Shown here: positions 3,029 through 32,330 of the stretch, one piece after another | How positions within the stretch are numbered: the stretch's first letter is position 1 | How the letters are laid out: every line of letters begins with the position of its first letter | Assembly: GCA_902518155.1 (NCBI GenBank) | Contig: CABYFA010000005.1 | Coordinates: forward strand, 1-64,000 | Length of the DNA: 64,000 bases | Direction: 5' to 3' | Origin: an uncultured Pelagibacteraceae bacterium | GTDB lineage: Bacteria; Pseudomonadota; Alphaproteobacteria; Pelagibacterales; Pelagibacteraceae | Made by a program: the position numbers and the translations under genes | The notes under the pieces: generated by a model | What the model saw: the letters and a program-made list of their open reading frames with translations, nothing else | What the model was told of the DNA's origin: nothing | Databases searched by the model: none

Positions 3029-6000
3029 TTAGAGGTTTAAAATTAATTTTATTCTTTTTTGCTTTTTGCAGTTTTAATCAAATCTCTTTCTCTAAACCAC
3101 TACCCCCAGGATCAGGTAGCGGAGATGTTCCGGCAAACATATTATTTTTACTAGATAGTTCAGCAAGTATGAATCGTACAATAGGAGCAGGTATACCAAG
3201 AATATCCTCTATGACAATTGATGGAGATGGCAATAAATTTTTAACATCTGTTGATAGAAGAGGAGGAGGGTTATTTCAATTTAATTCAGATGGTGAGCGA
3301 GTAAACATATCAGGAACTAGAGATAATGGCTCCACTTACTCTGTTTGGCCATGGCGAGCAACTAATGCAACTGATAGAACTTGTGATTTTGGTTTATCAG
3401 TTATGGGTGGTCTACAGACAAATGTAACAATTCCAATATTTGGTAGTTTTCATGAAGTCGATTATGTTGCAAGTGTAACTGTTCCTGGCACGACCATTGA
3501 TGATGATCCTTTATTATTTGTTGGAATGTATAACAATACCAGGGCACCGTATATTATTGGTCTTGATACAAATTTTCGATGCCGTTTAGTAGTGTCGAGT
3601 AGCTTAAATAGAGACAGGATTATGGGTTTTGACATTGCTATCAAAGATAGTGAACCGGTTATATACTTTTATGGTTATACAGGAAGAACAAATAGAGGAA
3701 CTTTTTTAGCAACCTGTAGCTTCGCAAATGCATCTTGTGCTGAAATGATAGGTAGAGGCAGAGGCCGGACGGATACGTTTGGACGATTGTGGGGTGGATT
3801 TCGTATTAGGATAACTGCTGAAGCCACAATGATGTATATGAGTCAAGCGGGTAGATTATATGGATATCAACTACCCGATCAGGTAAATGGTCTTCCAACT
3901 AATACCAGCACGCCTTTAAGGCAATGTACGCCTACGGCTAGGGTCTCGCCATATGATATCTCTAGCACAGATGAGGATATTTTTTATGGAGGCGATTGGA
4001 ATGTTGCTCGTCTTAACAAATTTGAATGGACAGATAATAGAACTTGTACAATACTTGATACAATTGGAACTTTTAGCAATGTGAGAAATAGCGGTGATCC
4101 AGGTACTATTGCAGCTGATAGTATAAGAATGCAGGGTCTAAATGGTGTCAGGGTAATTGGCAACAGAATTTTGTATTCAAGCCGTTCTTATGTTGATGAA
4201 TTATCTGAGAGTTTATGGACAGATGCTAATAGAAACACTACTTGGAGAAACCAAGTTGGTGGACCTAAAATAACAAGATGGACTGGTGCAAAAGATGCTC
4301 TTACTGCAGTTTTAAGTGATAGTACTTTAACATCAGGAGCTAATTTTGGCTTTGGACATTGGAACGCTGGTCATGGTAATTTAGGAAGAAGAGCAGTTCC
4401 TTTTGGAGGAGCTTGGTGTCATAGTAATAATAATCCCTGTAATTATTATGGAGGTCTCAGACCCGCTACTGATAGAGATCCAGCCAGAAGTAATATATGC
4501 ACTAGAAACTCATGTTTAAATGTGGGAATAAGCGAGGGAGGTGCAGCAGCTTCCTTAGATGTAATTGAAAGGTTAGGAGTAGAATGGGGAACAGACTCGG
4601 AGGCATTTTCTCAAATAGCTCATGATTATTTCTTTAACGATTTTACGGAATTTGATCCTGATGCAGAGTGTCAATTGAACTATGTAATTGTTATCGGTGA
4701 TGGAGAAATGACCAAAACAGGGACCAATGGTCAACGAGGAAGAACTGCCGCAAGGCTCGAGCGATTAAGACAAGCAGGGGTTCAAACATTAATGGTTGCT
4801 TATGGAGGTGGAATTAGAGCAAGAGGAATGAATTTATTTAACTCCCTAGCCCGAATTGGATCATGCGAAAATGCTGGCGACGCAGATTGTAGACCCACAA
4901 TAATAGCAAATACTCCTCAAGAATTACGAACGCAATTACAATCAATTATAAGACAAATCATTGCAGAAAAACTTGCATTTACAGCACCATCAATTACCGC
5001 AACCATTCAAGAGGGAGGTTCATTGTATCAAGCTCAATTTGAGTATATTCAATTTGGAGAATGGCAAGGAAGTATCTTTAGATCAGAATTAAGACCAGAT
5101 AAAGAAGTCATACAAGGACTAGATCATGAAGGTAACTGGAGTTCAGCAGTATCGTTAAGAGAACAAATTTTAGAGAGTAGTTCAGGAGGAACAAATGATG
5201 ATGGAAGAAATATTTGGACTGTATTACCAAATATATCTTATTTAGGTAATTGGAATAATTTTACTACTGCTGATGCAAATCAAGATGCAATAAACTCCTT
5301 AATGGGTAGATTGAATTTTAGTTTGCTCGACTATCATAATTCAAGTTCAGAATGTTCAACAAGCAATAGAGGTACAAATCATCCGTCACCATTGGGGGCA
5401 GATGTAGGCCAAGATGGGACTGCCGATGAAGTAGCGGGTCTAATTAATTTTATAAGAGGTCAAGATTATTTTGATTACGATGGAGATTGTATCATCAATG
5501 AACTTAGACCTCATATTCAAGGAGATATTTATCACTCACAATTAATTGAGATTGGAGCGCCCGATGCTAGCACGCAATTCACTGATAATAATCAAGAAGG
5601 ATATTTTAGGATGGTGAATGGTTACACCAACTTTAAACTACAAAATAAGTCTAGAACAAATATTATTTATGCAGGTTCTAATAGTGGTGTATTGCATGCA
5701 ATAAATGCATCAACAGGCAGAGAAGAGTGGGCATTTGTCCCACCATTTATAGCTGCAAAATTACCAATAGCAATTAATCCTTTGTTTGATGGTCGAGGTC
5801 CCAATGGCGAAGGTGGTAGTAACGCAATGTTTGGGGTTGATGGGTCTCCAGTTGTACACGATGTACTGATGAGAGGTTTAGACTCCCAGGGTGAATTAGA
5901 AGATGACCCGACTTGGCATACAATTCTGTTTATACCGTATGGCAGAGGCGGATCTGGTTTTTCTGTATTAGATGTAACACATCCCATTGTTGAACCATCA

Positions 6001-7833
6001 CGTGGACCCTTACACTTGTTCTCAGTTTATAATGATTATATCAGAAAAATTGTTTACATTGCCGATGAAGAAGGGAATATAACTGAGAGATCTTATGTAA
6101 CTAATTCTGTCAATGTAGAAGAATCTAGAGAAGCTTTACGAGCAGCAGTGAACTTAGAGGAGGTTTTGACTGAAGATGGTTTTTATAATGATCCTCAACC
6201 AGATCCTGAAGTCACAGATGCACAAGATGCTAGAGCAGCCTGTCAAACAAATAGTGATGCAACAAGTGGTGAATTTGCAGTAGATGGCAACAACACTTGC
6301 TATATAGGTAGCACTTTCACTTTTGATAATATTCAATTGGATGTGCCTGATGGGCAAGAAATAGATGCTAGCTTATTAAATGTTTCCAAATTAAATTCTG
6401 ATGGAGATTATGAACCTTTAGGTTTTTCAAGTGCGAGAATGATTAATGGAATATTTGAAATAACATTTAATGATGATTTAATTTACAATCCTGGTGGTAG
6501 TGTAAGTGAAACCAGGTTAACAGATGAATTTTTCATTCAAACTTCCTGTACGGCTGCTACTGGGATACCATTTGAATATGACTATAGTAAATTAGGTGAA
6601 ACTTGGTCAACTCCAAGAATAGTTAGGTTGCCTTCTGATGTGCCTGGTGAAGAGCTTGATAGATCAAATGATAAATATGTAGCGATTATGGGAGCTGGTT
6701 TAGCGGCTACCAATCGTTGTGCTGGATCTGCAGTATATCTGATCGAACTTGATGACATGGAAAATCCAGCAAGAATTTATGGCGCAGAGCAAAATCAAGG
6801 ACCAATTACAATAATTGATACAGAGCCAGGTGAAATAAGCATTGGTGGTAGTTCAATAGAAACTCCTAATGGTAGTAATATTAATAATTCAGTTCCAACG
6901 GATCCAATTGTTATAACACCAGATACAGCTTTTGGCGTCCCTTGGAGAGGTGCAATGGTTTATATCAATGACCATGAAGGAAAAATAACAAAAATTAATT
7001 TAACAGACTCTACAAAGCATGGTGCTAGAATGTTTGATCAAACCACTCTATTTAGGCTAAATGCCAATACAGCGAATGCCCGATACACATTTTTTTCAAT
7101 GGATGCAGGTATAGGAGTTACTACTAAAGATTTCTGGTTGTGGGGTGGAACAGGCAACTTCAATAAGCTAGCATCACGTAGTAGGACCATGGATAACATT
7201 ATTTATGGTGTTCGAGATAGAGACTATCCTTTCTTTAAACATTTAAATGGAGTTATTATTCCTAGAGAAACTGACCCAACATTTGTTGAGATGGCTCACC
7301 AAGGTGCTAATGCAGCAGCTGCAATAGATAATCCAGATGGCTCAGCAACAGCTCAGTGTAAAGACGTTACTGGTGATGCAGACGGGAGTCAATGTCCTAC
7401 CACAGAAGATGCTTGGTACATTAAACTTGATCAACAAGATGGGCTAGATCCAAATGATCTTCGAACAACAAATACAATGAGAAAAACTTCAGCACCACCA
7501 ACATTCTTTCAGGGTCAAGTGTATTTCCCAATTTATGAACCACCTGCGGGAACTGGTGAGGAGAGTTGTAAAATTGGAAATGCATTTATATGTGCATCTG
7601 ATGATGAATGTGGAACGAACAATTCACATAAATTAGTAAAAGGAAGTACAGCTAACGCTGAAGCATGTACGTTTGTTAGAGAAGGTGTTCTCTCAGAATT
7701 AGTTGTCTTTGATAATACACTTTTTGCAAACGTTGCAGGACCAAGTGAAATGGAGCAAACTTTATATAAGATAACAGCAATAGCTGGTGAAGTTTTATCA
7801 AATTCGGGTGGTTGGCGAGATGTTGGCTTTTAA
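3025..7833 (+). CDS. pilY1: PilY1-like pilus tip adhesin/assembly factor
   Basis: 1602 aa; signal peptide, VWA-like MIDAS motif (LFLLDSSASM), PilY1-typical C-terminal propeller segment (HIQGDIYHSQLIEIGAP, YAGSNSGVLHAINASTGREEWAFVPPF). Confidence 0.9.
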   Translation: MIRGLKLILFFFAFCSFNQISFSKPLPPGSGSGDVPANILFLLDSSASMNRTIGAGIPRISSMTIDGDGNKFLTSVDRRGGGLFQFNSDGERVNISGTRDNGSTYSVWPWRATNATDRTCDFGLSVMGGLQTNVTIPIFGSFHEVDYVASVTVPGTTIDDDPLLFVGMYNNTRAPYIIGLDTNFRCRLVVSSSLNRDRIMGFDIAIKDSEPVIYFYGYTGRTNRGTFLATCSFANASCAEMIGRGRGRTDTFGRLWGGFRIRITAEATMMYMSQAGRLYGYQLPDQVNGLPTNTSTPLRQCTPTARVSPYDISSTDEDIFYGGDWNVARLNKFEWTDNRTCTILDTIGTFSNVRNSGDPGTIAADSIRMQGLNGVRVIGNRILYSSRSYVDELSESLWTDANRNTTWRNQVGGPKITRWTGAKDALTAVLSDSTLTSGANFGFGHWNAGHGNLGRRAVPFGGAWCHSNNNPCNYYGGLRPATDRDPARSNICTRNSCLNVGISEGGAAASLDVIERLGVEWGTDSEAFSQIAHDYFFNDFTEFDPDAECQLNYVIVIGDGEMTKTGTNGQRGRTAARLERLRQAGVQTLMVAYGGGIRARGMNLFNSLARIGSCENAGDADCRPTIIANTPQELRTQLQSIIRQIIAEKLAFTAPSITATIQEGGSLYQAQFEYIQFGEWQGSIFRSELRPDKEVIQGLDHEGNWSSAVSLREQILESSSGGTNDDGRNIWTVLPNISYLGNWNNFTTADANQDAINSLMGRLNFSLLDYHNSSSECSTSNRGTNHPSPLGADVGQDGTADEVAGLINFIRGQDYFDYDGDCIINELRPHIQGDIYHSQLIEIGAPDASTQFTDNNQEGYFRMVNGYTNFKLQNKSRTNIIYAGSNSGVLHAINASTGREEWAFVPPFIAAKLPIAINPLFDGRGPNGEGGSNAMFGVDGSPVVHDVLMRGLDSQGELEDDPTWHTILFIPYGRGGSGFSVLDVTHPIVEPSRGPLHLFSVYNDYIRKIVYIADEEGNITERSYVTNSVNVEESREALRAAVNLEEVLTEDGFYNDPQPDPEVTDAQDARAACQTNSDATSGEFAVDGNNTCYIGSTFTFDNIQLDVPDGQEIDASLLNVSKLNSDGDYEPLGFSSARMINGIFEITFNDDLIYNPGGSVSETRLTDEFFIQTSCTAATGIPFEYDYSKLGETWSTPRIVRLPSDVPGEELDRSNDKYVAIMGAGLAATNRCAGSAVYLIELDDMENPARIYGAEQNQGPITIIDTEPGEISIGGSSIETPNGSNINNSVPTDPIVITPDTAFGVPWRGAMVYINDHEGKITKINLTDSTKHGARMFDQTTLFRLNANTANARYTFFSMDAGIGVTTKDFWLWGGTGNFNKLASRSRTMDNIIYGVRDRDYPFFKHLNGVIIPRETDPTFVEMAHQGANAAAAIDNPDGSATAQCKDVTGDADGSQCPTTEDAWYIKLDQQDGLDPNDLRTTNTMRKTSAPPTFFQGQVYFPIYEPPAGTGEESCKIGNAFICASDDECGTNNSHKLVKGSTANAEACTFVREGVLSELVVFDNTLFANVAGPSEMEQTLYKITAIAGEVLSNSGGWRDVGF

Positions 7834-7845
7834 ATAAAAAAAATT

Positions 7846-8610
7846 TTAATTTAAAAATAACTTAATCTGATTATTAAAAAAAAGAAAAATAACACATCCA
7901 ATGATGAGGTATGGGCCAAACGGTATCTGAGAAGAAAGTTTCTTTTTTTTTTTAATCAAATCAGGCATGACACTAATTAAAGCGACTGCGGAAGAAAAAA
8001 ATATTACAAAAGGAATTGAAATCCAACCAAACCAAAAACCAATCACTGAAAGCAACTTCGCATCACCCAAACCCATTCCCTCAATATTTCTTAATTTTTT
8101 ATAAATAAAAATTATTAGCCAAATTAAAATGTAGCCAAAGAAACCACCTATTAATGAGTTGATAAAATTTGGAAATAGATAAACATTAAGATTAGGATCA
8201 AATGATTTTAAAAATCCTACTAACATTAATGGATATGTAATTTCATTTGGGATGATGAAATGTTTTAAATCAATAAAAAATATTATTATAAACCCAATAC
8301 TTAAGATAAAAAATAAGAGACTTGTTAATGTTACACCGAATAAATAAAATATAAATACAAAAATTAAAGCAGCAAATAATTCTACTATAAAATATTTAAA
8401 ATTTATCTTAGCTGAGCAATGACTACATCTAGCTTTGAGGAGTATAAAAGAAAGTAATGGAATATTATCATGCCAACTAATTTGTTTTTTACATTGAGGG
8501 CAGTGTGAACGACCGGTAATTACACTTATATTATCTGGGATTCTGTGAATACATACATTGCTAAAACTCCCCCATATACTTCCAAAGATAAATACTATAA
8601 TATAGAACAC
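7846..8610 (-). CDS. pilD: Prepilin peptidase / N-methyltransferase PilD
   Basis: Two CxxC pairs (CPQC, CSHC), GMGLGDAKLL aspartyl motif, multiple TM segments. Confidence 0.95.
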   Translation of the reverse strand: MFYIIVFIFGSIWGSFSNVCIHRIPDNISVITGRSHCPQCKKQISWHDNIPLLSFILLKARCSHCSAKINFKYFIVELFAALIFVFIFYLFGVTLTSLLFFILSIGFIIIFFIDLKHFIIPNEITYPLMLVGFLKSFDPNLNVYLFPNFINSLIGGFFGYILIWLIIFIYKKLRNIEGMGLGDAKLLSVIGFWFGWISIPFVIFFSSAVALISVMPDLIKKKKKLSSQIPFGPYLIIGCVIFLFFNNQIKLFLN

Positions 8611-8709
8611 AATTTATAGTTTAATTTGAGAGGAAAATTCTATGAGCCCGTTAATGCAGTATTGTATAAACATCATAGCATCTGTTAGGTGCAAATAGAA
8701 ATTAGGCGT

Positions 8710-10059
8710 ATGAATAATGATTTCCATCAAAATCAAAATTATCAAATTACTAATGAATATCAATTTCTAAATAACATGTTTTTTGGCGCAAAAAAAAAGG
8801 AAACAATAAAAACAGACGATACTAGTAGTAAAGATTTAGAGCTAGTAACTAAAATGAACCAAGAGTTTGCTATGTCTCTTGATTTGAAAGAAACATTAAA
8901 TAACGCATTAGAATTAATTATAAAAAGAATTAATGCTCAAGCAGCAAATATTTTTTTGATTGATCAAAAGAATCAATCCTTTCAATGTATTGCTTCAAAA
9001 CATCAGGCTTATCTTGAGGACTTTGAAATACCTATTACCCAAGGAGTCATGGGCAAAGCTGCAATTATGAAAAAATGTATTAGAGTTGGAGATGTTAGAA
9101 AAGATATTAGAGAAATTGCTGAATTTTATTTTGATTTAGATAATAAAACAAATTTTACAACTTACTCGGTCTTATGTTCACCATTAATAGTATCGGATGA
9201 ATGTATTGGTGTTATTCATTGTTTAAATAAAAAAACAAATAATAAACTTTTTGAAGAAAATGACAGGAAACTTTTAGAAACTTTGTCTGGTCCAGCTGCT
9301 TTAGCAATAAATAATGCGAAGATGGCTAAAGACCTTATAGATAAGAATAGAATGCAAAAAGAAATTGAAATTGTTGGAGAGATACAAAAAACTTTACTAT
9401 CCCAAAACAAAAAAGAAAATTTTCCTATTGCAGGAATAAATATCCCAGCCAAAGTTGTCTCAGGAGATTTTTATAATTTTGCAAAACTTACAGATGGAGT
9501 GTATGGTTTTGGTGTTGCAGATGTCTCAGGCAAGGGAATAAAATCTTCTTTGCTTATGTCTAAAGCTTCAAGCTTGTATAGATGTTTAAGTAAAACAAAT
9601 TATTCTGCAGCGGAACTCTTAGATATTTTAAATTCAGAGATCTGTGAAACAACATCAAGAGGAATGTTTGTTACAATGTTAATTGGTGTTTATGATAGTA
9701 ATAAAAAAGAATTAACATTGGCAAACGCTGGGCATGAACCTCCATTAATCTATTCTGATGATGGAAACTTTTCAAATTTCGATGAAGCAGGACCTCCGTT
9801 AGGCATTGCACCTAAATTTAAATTTAAAGAAACAAAAATTAATTTTTCTAATAGCTCAATGTATATATTCACTGATGGTATTACAGAAATAAAAGATACT
9901 AAGGGCAACATGTTAGAGTCTGATGGATTTAAAAATTATATAAAGAAATATCAACAGACACCTAATCATGAAAGATTAAATAAAATTGTAGAAGATATAA
10001 TTAAATCAGGTCGAATTCAGAAAGATGATTTAACTATTGTAGTTGTAGACGGGAAATAG
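8710..10059 (+). CDS. GAF-domain SpoIIE-type (PP2C) serine phosphatase, RsbU-like
   Basis: GAF-like N-terminal region; SpoIIE motifs SGDFYNFAKL, GVADVSGKGIKSSLLMSKA, GMFVTMLIGVYD, ANAGHEPPL, FTDGITE, DDLTIVVV. ATG 8710 preferred over GTG 8689. Confidence 0.9.
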   Translation: MNNDFHQNQNYQITNEYQFLNNMFFGAKKKETIKTDDTSSKDLELVTKMNQEFAMSLDLKETLNNALELIIKRINAQAANIFLIDQKNQSFQCIASKHQAYLEDFEIPITQGVMGKAAIMKKCIRVGDVRKDIREIAEFYFDLDNKTNFTTYSVLCSPLIVSDECIGVIHCLNKKTNNKLFEENDRKLLETLSGPAALAINNAKMAKDLIDKNRMQKEIEIVGEIQKTLLSQNKKENFPIAGINIPAKVVSGDFYNFAKLTDGVYGFGVADVSGKGIKSSLLMSKASSLYRCLSKTNYSAAELLDILNSEICETTSRGMFVTMLIGVYDSNKKELTLANAGHEPPLIYSDDGNFSNFDEAGPPLGIAPKFKFKETKINFSNSSMYIFTDGITEIKDTKGNMLESDGFKNYIKKYQQTPNHERLNKIVEDIIKSGRIQKDDLTIVVVDGK

Positions 10060-10086
10060 TTTTTTGTGTTCTCAATTGGTAAAATA

Positions 10087-10367
10087 ATGATTTTGTTTGC
10101 AATAGTTCTTTCCACTCTGTTATATTGGGCAACTTCAAATGTTTGCAGATATAATTTTATAATTGAAAAAAAACTAACCAGTTAAACATTATTGCTGAAA
10201 GTGTACATCCGACGCTTCCGACAGCTAAAGTATATTATTTTAAAGAATTAAATTGTAATAATGTTAATTTAACATGGGATTATGAAAGAGTTTTAAGTAA
10301 CTTAAACACTATTTCAGTTTTGGTTTATCAAGAATTAACAACTGATATAAGAGGTGATCCTAATTAA
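10087..10367 (+). pseudogene. Small secreted/membrane ORF split by a -1 frame offset at an A8 tract (pseudogene, programmed frameshift or sequencing error)
   Basis: ATG 10087 encodes MILFAIVLSTLLYWATSNVCRYNFIIEKKLTS* (stop 10183-10185); the overlapping frame reads ...KKTNQLNIIAESVHPTLPTAKVYYFKELNCNNVNLTWDYERVLSNLNTISVLVYQELTTDIRGDPN* (stop 10365-10367). Neither is in the supplied ORF track. Confidence 0.45.
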
Positions 10368-10575
10368 TTTAAAAAGTTAGTTATTTTTTTCTAAATTTAT
10401 TAAAAATATTTTATTTTTATAAATTTTAAAAAAATTCACCCTATAAGTGATAAATTTTAAATTTTTTTATAAAAAAACCTCCAATTATGGATTGAAAAGA
10501 TAAATTTTTGAATATTTTACAATTAAATTTTGAATTAACATGAAAAAATAGAATTAAATTAAAAAAATTTTGTTT

Positions 10576-10899
10576 CTCTAACACAAAAAAAATTAACTCT
10601 AACACAAAAAGATAAATTTTAGTAAAAATCAGTTTTTTGTTGATTTTATTGACTTTTTTAATTTTTAAAAAATAAAAAAAACTCTAACACAATTTAAAAA
10701 AAACTCTAACACAAGTGAAATTTCTCTTTTGTGTTAGAATAATGCTAGCCTTTAAAATTTAACTTTAAAATAGAATTTAGACAAAAATGGCTTTTTTATT
10801 AGCTTTTTTGAAATTATTACCCATTTTGAACATAATATTTAATTTTGTGTTAGACTAAATTTGGATTTTGTGTTAGAGATTCGTTAAATTGTGTTAGAG
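10576..10899. repeat. Array of eight 11-bp motifs: 4x CTCTAACACAA then 4x TTGTGTTAGA(G/A/C)
   Basis: Forward copies at 10576-10586, 10597-10607, 10682-10692, 10704-10714; reverse copies at 10729-10739, 10845-10855, 10868-10878, 10889-10899. Confidence 0.9.
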
Positions 10900-10919
10900 A
10901 AAAAATTTATAATTAGTTT

Positions 10920-13394
10920 ATGAGCGATCAAGAAGACGATAAAAAAAATATAAATCAAGATACAACTGACAATGAGTCAGTAAATCAATCTTCAGTTGAT
11001 GAAAATAATCAACCTGAAGGTGTAGATTCTAATAATAATGACTCATCTGGTGATGAAAACAAAAATAATGAGCAAAATAATGACCAATCAGATGTTACGG
11101 CAGCTTCTTCTGAAAAAAAAGAGGAAAATAATAATTTAGAAACCCAAATTAGCGAGTCAAACGTTGAAGAAAACAACGTGCAACAAAGTTCTGATCCTTC
11201 TGATGAAAAAAAAGATGAAGATAATGGATCTAGGCACCAAGTTATACATAAAAAAGATGGTCGACTACACATTTATGTCAGACAAGACAAATATAAGGGT
11301 GAATTAAAATCAAAAAATTGGGTTGGTAGACTTTATATTGATGGAAAACAAAAAATTTCATCGTCAGGTACAACAAATTTAGAAGAAGCAATTCCAATTT
11401 TGGAAAAATGGTTTGATGATATTCAAGAAGAAAGTGAAAGATTAAAAAATCAAACTAGCGAAACACAGGTTGATGAAAATCAAAGTGCACCTGAAGAAAA
11501 TATTTCATCAGAAGAAGACAAACAAAAATCTCAAGATACATTAAGAGAAATAGAAAAAGTTCAAACACCAATTGTTGAGGCTAACAATCAACCACAAGAA
11601 CAAACCTCTTTAAGTACTTCTAATGAAAATATCGAACAAAGTAAACAAGATAAATTAAAAAGTAAAATTACAAATATTTTTGGAAAATTAAAAGATATCA
11701 AATTAAAGAAACCTTCTTTTGCAAATAATCTTGTTAAATCTTCATCCAGTAACTCAAAAGTTGGAAATTTAAAATCAAAGTTTGAAAGTTTCTTTAAATC
11801 AAAATTAGGTAAATCAACTGTACAAGGTGAAGAGATATTAGGAGTGGAACTATCGAATAAAGAAATAAGATTAGTCCAAGTTTCAAGTAATAAAGCAAAT
11901 CAATGGGTGTTAGATAAATTGTATATACACCCAGTTGATATTACTGACGATAGTACTCCAATTGATAATGCTGATAAATTTTCAGAAGAATTAAGATTAG
12001 CAGTGCAAAAATATAAAATATTTTCTCCGAACGTTGCAATATCTATACCAGTCACTAGTGCAATAATAAGAGTTGTCACTGCACCATTAATGAAAGATGA
12101 GGAATTAGAGAAAGCCATTGAAACCAATTCTTTATGGGAAAATTTAGTCCAGTTAACTGATAATTTAGAGGATTATTCAATTTTTCATCAAGTAATCAAT
12201 AGAAATCAAAAAGATAATACAATGGATATTTTGTTTGTTGCATCAAAATTAACCGACATAAATAGTTATACGTCTATAATTAAAAATGCAGGTTTAAATC
12301 CTGTTATTATTGATGTTAAATGTTTTGCTTTAAAATCTGCTGTAGATCAATCAAACCAACTTACCAATAGAGTTGAAGATGCAAACTTAACTGCAGTTTT
12401 AGAATTTGGTCTGGATGAAAATTATTTAATGATTTTATATGATAATAACCCCATAATTACTGATATTTTCATCAGAGGGCAGGATAGAAAAATTTTACAG
12501 GAGTCACAGGATGCTGAGGAAAAAGAAGGTTTGGTAAGGAGATATGTAACACAAGTTAAACAAGCCATTCAGGATTTTGAAACAAAATATGAAAAAAGAA
12601 TTAGGAATGTTAAAGTTGTTTCTGACATCAAGAATGTTGAGGAATATTTAGGAAACTTTAGAAAAAATTTGATGAACGTCGGTTTTAATACGTTCGATCC
12701 ATCTGAGGGATTAAAAATTCCGAGTCAATTTCAGCAAACATTAGATAGTAGAGACAATCGTTCATATTTATCTACATCTATTGGTCTAGCGTTTAGAAAA
12801 CTTGATGTGTTTGGCTATTACAAGTTTGTAACTGCAGTTAAAAACATCAACTTATTACCAGATAGATCAAGTGTGATGAAACAAAAGAAAATGAAAGCTA
12901 TTTCTGGATTTGCTTTTAAGGGAATAACGGCAGCTGTTGCAGCAATTTATTTAGTTTTATTTGGTTTATCATTTTGGAATATTTTTTCATACAATGCAAA
13001 GTTAAAAGATTATGACAATGTATTAGCTGAGCATTCAAAGTTAGTAAAACAGAAGAAAGTTGTTTCAAAAGAACTAAAATTAATGAACACAACTCTAAAA
13101 CTAAGCAGGACTTTAAAATCAAATAAAGAATTAACTTATAGAATTTTAGCTCAGGTAGCTTCAAGTGTACCAAAGAGAGTAAGATTTGATCAAGTTGAGT
13201 TCAATGGAACTACTACCCTTACAATCCAAGGTGTCGCCGCAAGTGATCAAGATATATTAAAATTTATTGAAAATTTAAGTAAACAAAAATTAGTGAAACA
13301 AGCATCATTGTCATCTATGAGATTACCAAAATCTAACGTAGGTGGAGCAACAATGAAAGGTTTTAGAGTTTTTGTAAAAATTAAAAGAGGTTAA
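10920..13394 (+). CDS. PilM-PilN fusion protein with Asn/Asp/Glu-rich N-terminus and a small Arm/AP2-like domain
   Basis: PilM actin-like region (EEILGVELSNKEIRLVQVSS...), then PilN-like region with TM and coiled coil (NINLLPDRSSVMKQKKMKAISGFAFKGITAAVAAIYLVLFGLSFW...). Confidence 0.85.
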   Translation: MSDQEDDKKNINQDTTDNESVNQSSVDENNQPEGVDSNNNDSSGDENKNNEQNNDQSDVTAASSEKKEENNNLETQISESNVEENNVQQSSDPSDEKKDEDNGSRHQVIHKKDGRLHIYVRQDKYKGELKSKNWVGRLYIDGKQKISSSGTTNLEEAIPILEKWFDDIQEESERLKNQTSETQVDENQSAPEENISSEEDKQKSQDTLREIEKVQTPIVEANNQPQEQTSLSTSNENIEQSKQDKLKSKITNIFGKLKDIKLKKPSFANNLVKSSSSNSKVGNLKSKFESFFKSKLGKSTVQGEEILGVELSNKEIRLVQVSSNKANQWVLDKLYIHPVDITDDSTPIDNADKFSEELRLAVQKYKIFSPNVAISIPVTSAIIRVVTAPLMKDEELEKAIETNSLWENLVQLTDNLEDYSIFHQVINRNQKDNTMDILFVASKLTDINSYTSIIKNAGLNPVIIDVKCFALKSAVDQSNQLTNRVEDANLTAVLEFGLDENYLMILYDNNPIITDIFIRGQDRKILQESQDAEEKEGLVRRYVTQVKQAIQDFETKYEKRIRNVKVVSDIKNVEEYLGNFRKNLMNVGFNTFDPSEGLKIPSQFQQTLDSRDNRSYLSTSIGLAFRKLDVFGYYKFVTAVKNINLLPDRSSVMKQKKMKAISGFAFKGITAAVAAIYLVLFGLSFWNIFSYNAKLKDYDNVLAEHSKLVKQKKVVSKELKLMNTTLKLSRTLKSNKELTYRILAQVASSVPKRVRFDQVEFNGTTTLTIQGVAASDQDILKFIENLSKQKLVKQASLSSMRLPKSNVGGATMKGFRVFVKIKRG

Positions 13395-19130: not shown

Positions 19131-19568
19131 TTACAATTTTTTTGTTAAAACTAAATTATTGATCCAAGGTTTATCACCTTCTTTAAACTTTATTGAATCC
19201 ATTATCTCTTGAATAAAAAAGGTGCCAAGTCCGCCCGGTTTGACATCATCAATTGCTCTATGTTTAACTTTACTTTTTTCAACTGGCTTTCCTTTGTCAA
19301 AAAATGAAATTTCAAGTTCTTTATCTGTACAAGAAATTCTTACAGCCATTCTATCTTGTGTATCAGGATAGTCTTTATAAGCATGTTTAACTATATTTTG
19401 TGCAGCTTCAGCAATTGCTAAAACAAGTTCCTCTCTAAGATCTTCATTAATTTTAAACTTTTCAAAAACTTCTCTAGAAAAACTTCTTACATCCTTCAGG
19501 CTTGAAGAATTTACTAAAAAATCTTTTTTTTCTGATAGATTGGTTTGATCTGAGTTTTCAGTACTCAT
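19131..19568 (-). CDS. RsbW-like serine kinase / anti-sigma factor (HATPase_c_2)
   Basis: N box LREELVLAIAEAAQNIVKHAY, G boxes FFDKGKPV and PGGLGTFFIQEIMD. Confidence 0.9.
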   Translation of the reverse strand: MSTENSDQTNLSEKKDFLVNSSSLKDVRSFSREVFEKFKINEDLREELVLAIAEAAQNIVKHAYKDYPDTQDRMAVRISCTDKELEISFFDKGKPVEKSKVKHRAIDDVKPGGLGTFFIQEIMDSIKFKEGDKPWINNLVLTKKL

Positions 19569-19577
19569 GAAATTTAA

Positions 19578-19877
19578 TTACTCCAGATTTAAAATTTGTT
19601 CTAACTTTGCCATCATAATTACTTTAAGTACCGATTTACTCACATCTTTGATGATAAGTTTAGTACCTTTCTCTAATGCTTTTTGGTGACTTTCGATTAG
19701 AACTGAGATACCCGACGAGTCCATATATTGGACATTACTTAAATTTAAATAAACATCTTTACCAGAGTCTATAATAGGAAAAATAACTTCCTTGGCTCCC
19801 TCAGTTTTGTCCATGTCTATTTCACCATCTAAAAATACAGTGCTAGAATTTCCCTCTTCTGTAACTTTATATGTCAT
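19578..19877 (-). CDS. STAS-domain anti-sigma factor antagonist (RsbV-like)
   Basis: VYLNLSNVQYMDSSGISVLIESHQKA, phosphorylatable-Ser motif DSSG. Confidence 0.93.
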   Translation of the reverse strand: MTYKVTEEGNSSTVFLDGEIDMDKTEGAKEVIFPIIDSGKDVYLNLSNVQYMDSSGISVLIESHQKALEKGTKLIIKDVSKSVLKVIMMAKLEQILNLE

Positions 19878-20158
19878 AAAAATTTCCTTGCCATTGCTAA
19901 AACTTTTTCAACTGGTTGACTAACTTCTTTTAATTCTACTTTGGTATTTTTTTCTTTTGCTCTTTGATTACTTTCAACCAAGACAGATATTCCAGATGAG
20001 TCCATATATTGCACGTCTTTCAGGTTTAGATGCACTTCTTTGCCAGCATCAATTAATGGAAATATGACTTCTCTTACGTTATCTGCGATATCCATATCAA
20101 TTTCTCCGTTAAGAAAAACTGTGCTTATATTCTCGTTTTCTGTAACTTTAAATTTCAT
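19874..20158 (-). CDS. STAS-domain anti-sigma factor antagonist (RsbV-like), tandem paralogue
   Basis: VHLNLKDVQYMDSSGISVLVESNQRA; overlaps the neighbouring STAS gene; start at MKFKV preferred. Confidence 0.93.
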   Translation of the reverse strand: MKFKVTENENISTVFLNGEIDMDIADNVREVIFPLIDAGKEVHLNLKDVQYMDSSGISVLVESNQRAKEKNTKVELKEVSQPVEKVLAMARKFL

Positions 20159-20319
20159 AATTACAATATTAATCAAGCTAATAACAAAAAATATGCGAAA
20201 ATTAAACCCAATTTGATCTACGATAGCAATATTTGAGTTAATTTAAGCAAATTTTTCAGTTTACATCAGAATAATTTATTATAAGTTTTTGGTATTAATT
20301 AATTAATTAAAGAGGAAAT

Positions 20320-31595: not shown

Positions 31596-31659
31596 AAATC
31601 CTTTATATTTGAAAAAAATCAATAATGCATTTTTTTTAGGATCTGTTATAGTATGATCT

Positions 31660-31715
31660 GATAGTCCTACTTAGCCATCTTTAGCTCCCGGTTTTTTAGG
31701 ACTATCTTTTTTTTT
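31660..31715 (+). terminator. Perfect 10-bp inverted repeat plus T-run immediately upstream of a lysE-family gene; terminator/attenuator-like
   Basis: GATAGTCCTA (31660-31669) ... TAGGACTATC (31697-31706) followed by T9 at 31707-31715; CDS ATG at 31716. Confidence 0.65.
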
Positions 31716-32330
31716 ATGCTCCCCCTAGATTTTATCCTTTTTTTACAGATCATAATTTTTCTATTCATCACACCGGGTACCCCTCGGATAGTAATTATTT
31801 CTTATTCGATGAATTATGGTGTTAAAAATTGTATTTGGACAGCTTTAGGTGATGTTACCGCAAATTTATTTCAAGCAACTTTAGTAATTTTTGTTATAGG
31901 AACTTTTTTGTCTGACAATCCAAACTTTTTAAATTTTTTTAAGTGGGTTGGAGTTTTTTATTTAATGTATTTAGCTTACGATGTGTACAAATCTACACCA
32001 AAAGATGTAAATTCAAAAATAATTAGCACCAAAAGTGTTTTTTCTTTTTATAAAGATGGTTTTTTAGTTGCGGGCACAAGTCCTAAGGCTTGGTTGTTCT
32101 TTCCTCTAATATTTCCACAGTTCATTGATTTTAATACCAATTATATTGTTCAATTCTTTATTTTAATAACAACTTATGTTGTTTTAGATTTTATTTCTTT
32201 AATTGGTTATGCTTTGCTAGCACAAAAATTAATTATGTGGATCAAAGCAAACCCAAAAACAATTAATACAATCTCAGCGAGTGTTTTAGTAATCATTGCG
32301 CTAATTATTATTGTTACACAACAATATTAG
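31716..32330 (+). CDS. LysE family transporter
   Basis: FLFITPGTPRIVIISYSMNYGVKNCIWTALGDVTANL, multiple TMs. Confidence 0.85.
   Translation: MLPLDFILFLQIIIFLFITPGTPRIVIISYSMNYGVKNCIWTALGDVTANLFQATLVIFVIGTFLSDNPNFLNFFKWVGVFYLMYLAYDVYKSTPKDVNSKIISTKSVFSFYKDGFLVAGTSPKAWLFFPLIFPQFIDFNTNYIVQFFILITTYVVLDFISLIGYALLAQKLIMWIKANPKTINTISASVLVIIALIIIVTQQY

Follow-up and report, generated by a model that had tools for sequence, protein, structure and literature searches.

The 11-bp repeat array upstream of pilMN

The window analysed here is a stretch of 64,000 nt of contig CABYFA010000005.1 (assembly GCA_902518155.1), from the 1.14-Mb genome of an uncultured member of the Pelagibacteraceae (SAR11). SAR11 bacteria rank with the most abundant of the sea, and very few regulators are known in them. 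At 10920-13394 (+) the window carries pilMN, a fusion gene encoding 824 aa with Pfam matches to PilM_2 and PilN, and upstream of this gene lies an array of eight copies of an 11-bp motif, six of them perfect and two with one mismatch. Four forward copies of CTCTAACACAA (F1 to F4, at 10576-10586, 10597-10607, 10682-10692 and 10704-10714, all +) are followed by four copies on the minus strand: an inner copy at 10729-10739 (TTCTAACACAA); R1 at 10845-10855 (GTCTAACACAA, which reads TTGTGTTAGAC on the plus strand and is a conserved variant); R2 at 10868-10878, after which the plus strand has a conserved ATTCGT; and R3 at 10889-10899, with the ATG 20 bp further on. The inner reverse copy and R1 are the two inexact ones, each mismatched at position 1. 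The original prediction had the starts and orientations of all eight copies right.

The array spans 324 bp with its eight sites, and there is one such large array per genome. A whole-genome search returned six perfect copies of the motif, all of them inside the array, while copies with one mismatch elsewhere in the genome are scattered and no more frequent than those of a reversed-pattern control. In the 860-bp gap that holds the array, eight copies with at most one mismatch were observed against 0.0135 expected under a first-order Markov null, which in 2000 trials gave one copy at most. A DNA uptake sequence was rejected, as the motif is not dispersed around the genome. The suggestion of an origin-like iteron set is not supported either: paired copies occur at pilMN only, and the window shows no turn in GC skew.

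The array had also been placed in the largest intergenic gap of the window. This gap of 860 bp is in fact partly coding, as it contains a small conserved gene at about 10088-10366, and the true gap measures ~550 bp. The small gene (10088-10366, +; ~100 residues) lies between a SpoIIE gene and the array and is intact in 88 of the 102 loci with a match, many of which are the same gene repeated and some of which are cut. Its copy in the window has a frameshift at an A-run near 10166, which is either a real pseudogene mutation or an assembly error. Six contigs from several SAR11 genomes stop inside or just past the array, which might reflect difficult assembly or variability of the array.

Conservation and geometry of the array

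In a comparison with 60 relatives, which in named collections are single-cell and metagenome genomes of Pelagibacteraceae, the array was found to recur upstream of pilMN orthologues (61-74% identical). Its footprint extends across the genus and to further genera of the family, and its layout is shared by dozens of species. Among 92 distinct upstream regions, 72 of them covering at least 1000 bp, the commonest layouts are FFFFRRRR (22), FFFRRRRR (20) and FFFRRRR (13), where F and R denote forward and reverse copies. The dyad symmetry proposed earlier stands only in the sense that all forward copies precede all reverse copies; the middle trio is F-F-R or F-R-R depending on the species, and distant lineages are ordered otherwise. 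An invertible (fimS-like) element was provisionally rejected, as the F-to-R polarity is constant in most species of the main lineage. All-forward arrays (FFFFF) stand upstream of domain-bearing pilMN genes in three genomes (G305, G284 and G117), with the same motif in a different geometry.

Alignment of 615 copies shows very little variation in the 11-bp core CTCTAACACAA, apart from its first base, and flanks near background; as the copies were picked at no more than one mismatch in ten bases, the sharpness of the core is partly a product of selection, but the flatness of the flanks is not. Neighbouring copies on the same strand are mostly 19-23 bp apart, the spacing across the F-R switch is 24-25 or 34-35 bp, and that between the reverse groups takes values of 116, 127-128, 139, 150 and 161 bp, i.e., steps of ~11 bp. 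Insertions and deletions are therefore accepted mostly as whole helical turns, as expected for DNA that is bound by protein and looped, with the proviso that the genomes are related and that formal statistics overstate their independence. The sharp core between flat flanks, the helical-turn steps and the footprint in relatives all support the original prediction of a cooperative operator or nucleoprotein site. In most species the proximal three copies lie within 75 bp of the ATG; typical positions of these final reverse copies are about -75, -52 and -31 relative to the presumed start.

These data bear on whether the copies might act in RNA, with forward and reverse copies pairing as hairpins in the leader transcript to form an attenuator or to exert antisense control. 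F4 and the inner reverse copy are indeed inverted relative to each other, with a 14-nt loop between them; on the other hand, direct repeats and spacing in helical-turn steps fit DNA, a few genomes have forward copies only, and neither a terminator-like site nor an Rfam match was found at the array. We regard action in RNA as highly improbable.

A second conserved element, CCCATTTTGAACAT (consensus CYCAnnwTGrnCAy), lies at 10820-10833 (+), ~17-28 bp upstream of R1. By eye, a similar sequence, CCCA-wwTTGAAyA, can be seen upstream of pilM in a clade that has neither the array nor the N-terminal domain of PilMN described below. This element is probably a promoter or activator site, onto which the array may have been laid. 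A consensus promoter scan gave matches at chance level and, in DNA so rich in A+T, was uninformative.

The N-terminal domain of PilMN

In this lineage PilMN has a long N-terminal extension, in which a 71-residue domain (residues 106-176; 11235-11447, +) is enclosed by disordered sequence, an acidic stretch on its N-terminal side and a linker leading to PilM on the other. The 71-residue domain is the most conserved part of the protein: over 50 proteins its mean pairwise identity is 96%, compared with 81% for the PilM core, 31% for the linker and 21% for the tail. The strongest hydrophobic segment of PilMN on the Kyte-Doolittle scale, at about residues 671-689 (12930-12986, +), is the expected membrane anchor of the PilN part.

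The domain matched none of the Pfam families searched, and on the whole of PilMN Pfam reports PilM_2 and PilN only, with no winged helix (Trans_reg_C). A PDB sequence search with the domain found nothing, and a structure search of PDB and BFVD gave no confident match (best viral hit, E 0.06; phage Mx8 integrase, E 0.5). An AlphaFold2 model of the domain (pLDDT 86) has strands at its positions 13-17, 31-37 and 40-45, a helix at 51-73 and a short edge strand. Arm-binding domains consist of three strands and one helix (PMC8138268), and the three main strands and C-terminal helix of the model show this same arrangement. Since no confident match to a fold or family was obtained, the predicted membership among DNA-binding arm-binding domains rests on homology to the N-termini of SAR11 tyrosine integrases and not on a known arm-binding family.

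Tyrosine integrases that share the domain and a nearly identical motif

The only other homologues of the domain that we found are N-terminal domains of tyrosine integrases. Two SAR11 integrases of 418-423 aa, which pass the Pfam Phage_integrase threshold, have N-termini 50-61% identical to the PilMN domain, with 30 invariant columns. The integrase of genome G146 (423 aa) is the one at 61%, while genome G361 carries the second domain-bearing integrase together with a domain-bearing PilMN and its array. A sample of the class yielded one further homologue, the N-terminus of an integrase-like protein (E 3e-4). In a three-way integrase alignment, read by eye, the catalytic R, S-x-R and Y are invariant. 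An AlphaFold model of the whole integrase, built from three sequences, reached a pLDDT of 39 and was uninformative. Domain matches with stops near ribosomal-protein and RNA-polymerase genes in two genomes were set aside as noise. From the one remote integrase outside SAR11 and the general role of such domains, we infer that the domain passed from an integrase and not the reverse.

Both integrase genes belong to elements inserted at the same site, a tRNA-Leu gene split at the anticodon loop, and the genome of the window has an uninterrupted tRNA-Leu at the corresponding place. The core repeat ATTTTGAGT of the G361 element is found near 4422 and 9479 of its contig (L238), and the element also contains an entire tRNA-Leu. 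The elements (L238, ~4422-9488; L128, ~6270-11355) are ~5 kb long, occur in 2 of several hundred SAR11 genomes, and carry a complete tRNA-Leu(CAA), a serine resolvase and the tyrosine integrase.

About 60-80 bp inside each att core, two 11-mers stand in tandem; they read CTCTTACACAA CTCTTACACTA in G361, and G146 has close variants of them. In both elements the sites are CTCTTACACAA or forms with one or two mismatches, arranged in 11-bp tandem pairs. The 24-mer that holds the tandem pair is repeated exactly at both ends of the G361 element. CTCTTACACAA is one base away from the pilMN motif, with A changed to T at position 5. Two genes that have this domain in common thus each adjoin nearly identical 11-mer repeats. 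Arm-type sites are the targets of the N-terminal arm-binding domain of integrases (PMC8138268), and in place and form the tandem pairs stand as putative arm-type sites. The likeness of the pilMN motif to such sites, with the protein encoded downstream as its probable binder, lies beyond what the original prediction had envisaged.

The arm-binding domain of tyrosine integrases such as lambda Int and Tn916 Int, with its arm-type sites, offers a parallel: the PilMN domain is homologous to the N-terminus of tyrosine integrases, its model has three strands and one helix, and near-identical 11-bp sites flank the att cores of the SAR11 elements that encode the domain-bearing integrases. PilMN departs from this in that the domain belongs to a pilus assembly protein without recombinase domains, and in that the sites are spaced 21-23 bp apart and not in tandem, and lie in the 5' region of a gene and not in att arms. 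The direction of the copies differs as well, a point against the operator reading proposed below: those proximal to pilMN are opposite to the gene, while those near int in the elements have the same direction as int.

We also considered that the array was left behind by an ancient integrative element next to pilM and that the domain is a fused integrase remnant, both functionless. In the living elements int begins ~45 bp from the tandem site pair, and a deletion could thus have fused int to pilM close to arm sites. Remnants would, however, decay in a streamlined genome, whereas here conservation is higher in the domain than in the PilM core, the 11-mers hardly vary over the 92 upstream regions when their flanks do, and helical phase is kept in the spacing. 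There is very little chance, in our judgement, that the two are functionless.

A phage or viral origin of the array was rejected, as a search of 50,697 phage records and of IMG/VR found no homologue of the domain. The motif pair is present in 47 viral contigs, most of which have a few scattered weak copies. Of the seven clustered cases that were inspected, six resemble repeats of low-complexity or coding type, and the remaining contig (L282) has a tandem repeat of its own at 8823-8938, with six 21-bp copies containing TCCTAACACAA, that is probably unrelated to the SAR11 array.

Co-occurrence of the domain and the array

In a survey of 300 genomes of the genus, paired copies of the motif were found in 57 and the domain in 62, with all 57 contained within the 62; the paired copies sit at pilMN, and not one genome without the domain has them. 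The other five domain-positive genomes comprise three with arrays that have variant copies or spacing (G154, G175 and G236), one in which the pilMN gene is cut by the contig end (G285), and G146, where the domain is on the integrase. Seven genomes of the genus (G011, G013, G018, G023, G027, G032 and G035) encode a PilM without the domain, and the array is present in none of the seven.

The PilM core of this domain-less clade is 69-73% identical to that of the window, while that of a second domain-bearing lineage (lineage B: G175, G236, G462, G445, G522 and G130), which has both domain and array, is 52-53% identical. The domain-less clade groups with the domain-bearing lineage of the window (lineage A) and not with lineage B; the tree, several forks of which are weak, needs at least two label changes. 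The domain and the array have changed together, whether they were lost jointly or gained twice. In lineage B a divergent pilT-like gene takes the place of SpoIIE upstream, and the array is still beside a domain-bearing pilMN. The strength of this association is bounded by the number of independent coupled changes, only about two, and by the adjacency of domain and array, which could be co-inherited without interacting.

These results weigh on the possibility that a different transcription factor, such as a LytTR-type response regulator, uses the array as its operator and that the PilMN domain has another function. Response regulators of this type use direct repeats ~21 bp apart, and the direct-repeat spacing of 20-23 bp resembles LytTR sites. 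Further pil regulation may exist, since the window encodes a SpoIIE phosphatase, an RsbW-like kinase and a STAS protein. Nevertheless, the LytTR domain (PF04397) is present in none of 61 related genomes, while control genomes were positive, and a LytTR regulator was rejected for this reason. More generally, the array is missing from genomes that lack the domain and is found under differing upstream neighbours, of SpoIIE type or pilT-like and divergent, and the same motif with one base changed stands at the arms of elements whose integrase bears the PilMN domain. A separate factor thus appears distinctly unlikely to be the binder.

The three proteins just mentioned flank the pil operon as a GAF-SpoIIE phosphatase (8689-10059, +), an RsbW-like HATPase (19131-19568, -) and a STAS protein (19874-20176, -), and form a full partner-switching module in a regulator-poor genome.

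A proposed operator for PilMN

Taken with the homology of the domain to integrase N-termini, the single-base difference between the motifs strongly suggests that the 11-bp copies are binding sites of the PilMN domain. We propose that the array is the operator of PilMN, that the domain is an exapted integrase arm-binding domain, and that PilMN is a membrane-bound regulator of its own operon, most likely a repressor; on the sequence data we put the probability of this reading at roughly 70%. The domain, taken over from a tyrosine integrase, would grip the array at its own promoter, and the 11-bp copies would be the descendants or the equivalents of integrase arm-type sites.

The predicted topology of PilMN places the domain on the cytosolic side of a single membrane segment. 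One such segment together with a cytosolic domain would make PilMN a membrane-bound regulator in the manner of ToxR and CadC, which have a cytosolic N-terminal DNA-binding domain, one membrane segment and a periplasmic part, and act from the membrane. The likeness would lie in the N-terminal position of the predicted DNA-binding domain (106-176) and in the one strong hydrophobic segment (~671-689); the difference is that ToxR and CadC use a winged helix, whereas PilMN would use an integrase-type domain on a structural PilM-PilN platform protein.

Repression is suggested by the three copies that lie within 75 bp of the ATG, where bound protein would block initiation or elongation; DNA looping is suggested by the phased distal copies, which lie on one face of the helix and would permit it. 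Control would then most likely be a negative feedback, in which the pil operon is shut off by PilMN in excess but not by PilMN that is engaged in the pilus base. That the sign of control is repression is a guess on our part, and so is its signal. We lean towards the fuller picture in which a pilus platform protein became a membrane-anchored regulator by way of an integrase domain and its sites, with the state of assembly gating the operon and the promoter held at the membrane.

A related alternative accepts that the PilMN domain binds the array and holds that it does so mainly to tether or position the locus at the membrane, at the pilus base, with transcription unaffected or affected secondarily. 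PilMN is an inner-membrane platform protein with a single membrane segment, and the single large array per genome would suit a tether. The array nevertheless occupies the 5' region of the gene of its presumed binder, where operators are usually found; in most species three of its copies are within 75 bp of the ATG, and no other tether-like locus was found. Tethering as the main function is in our opinion unlikely, though it is the most credible of the alternatives, and we favour the operator.

In Pseudomonas, feedback through PilS-PilR on pilA provides a precedent for a pilus component that reports on itself and sets the transcription of pilus genes (PMC6058289). That system employs a sensor kinase and a separate sigma-54 activator, while in our proposal the PilMN component is itself the regulator. 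Our literature search found no report of a domain-bearing PilM, of the array or of pil regulation in SAR11. If the proposal is true, a component of the pilus platform acts directly on DNA, as a regulator that any domain search would miss, and a domain of a mobile element has been absorbed with its DNA sites into a host machine, where it is more constrained than the core of the machine.

Elsewhere in the window, a member of the rhtB sRNA family (RF01814) was detected at 31642-31724 (+), with a score of 76 against a cut-off of 55.
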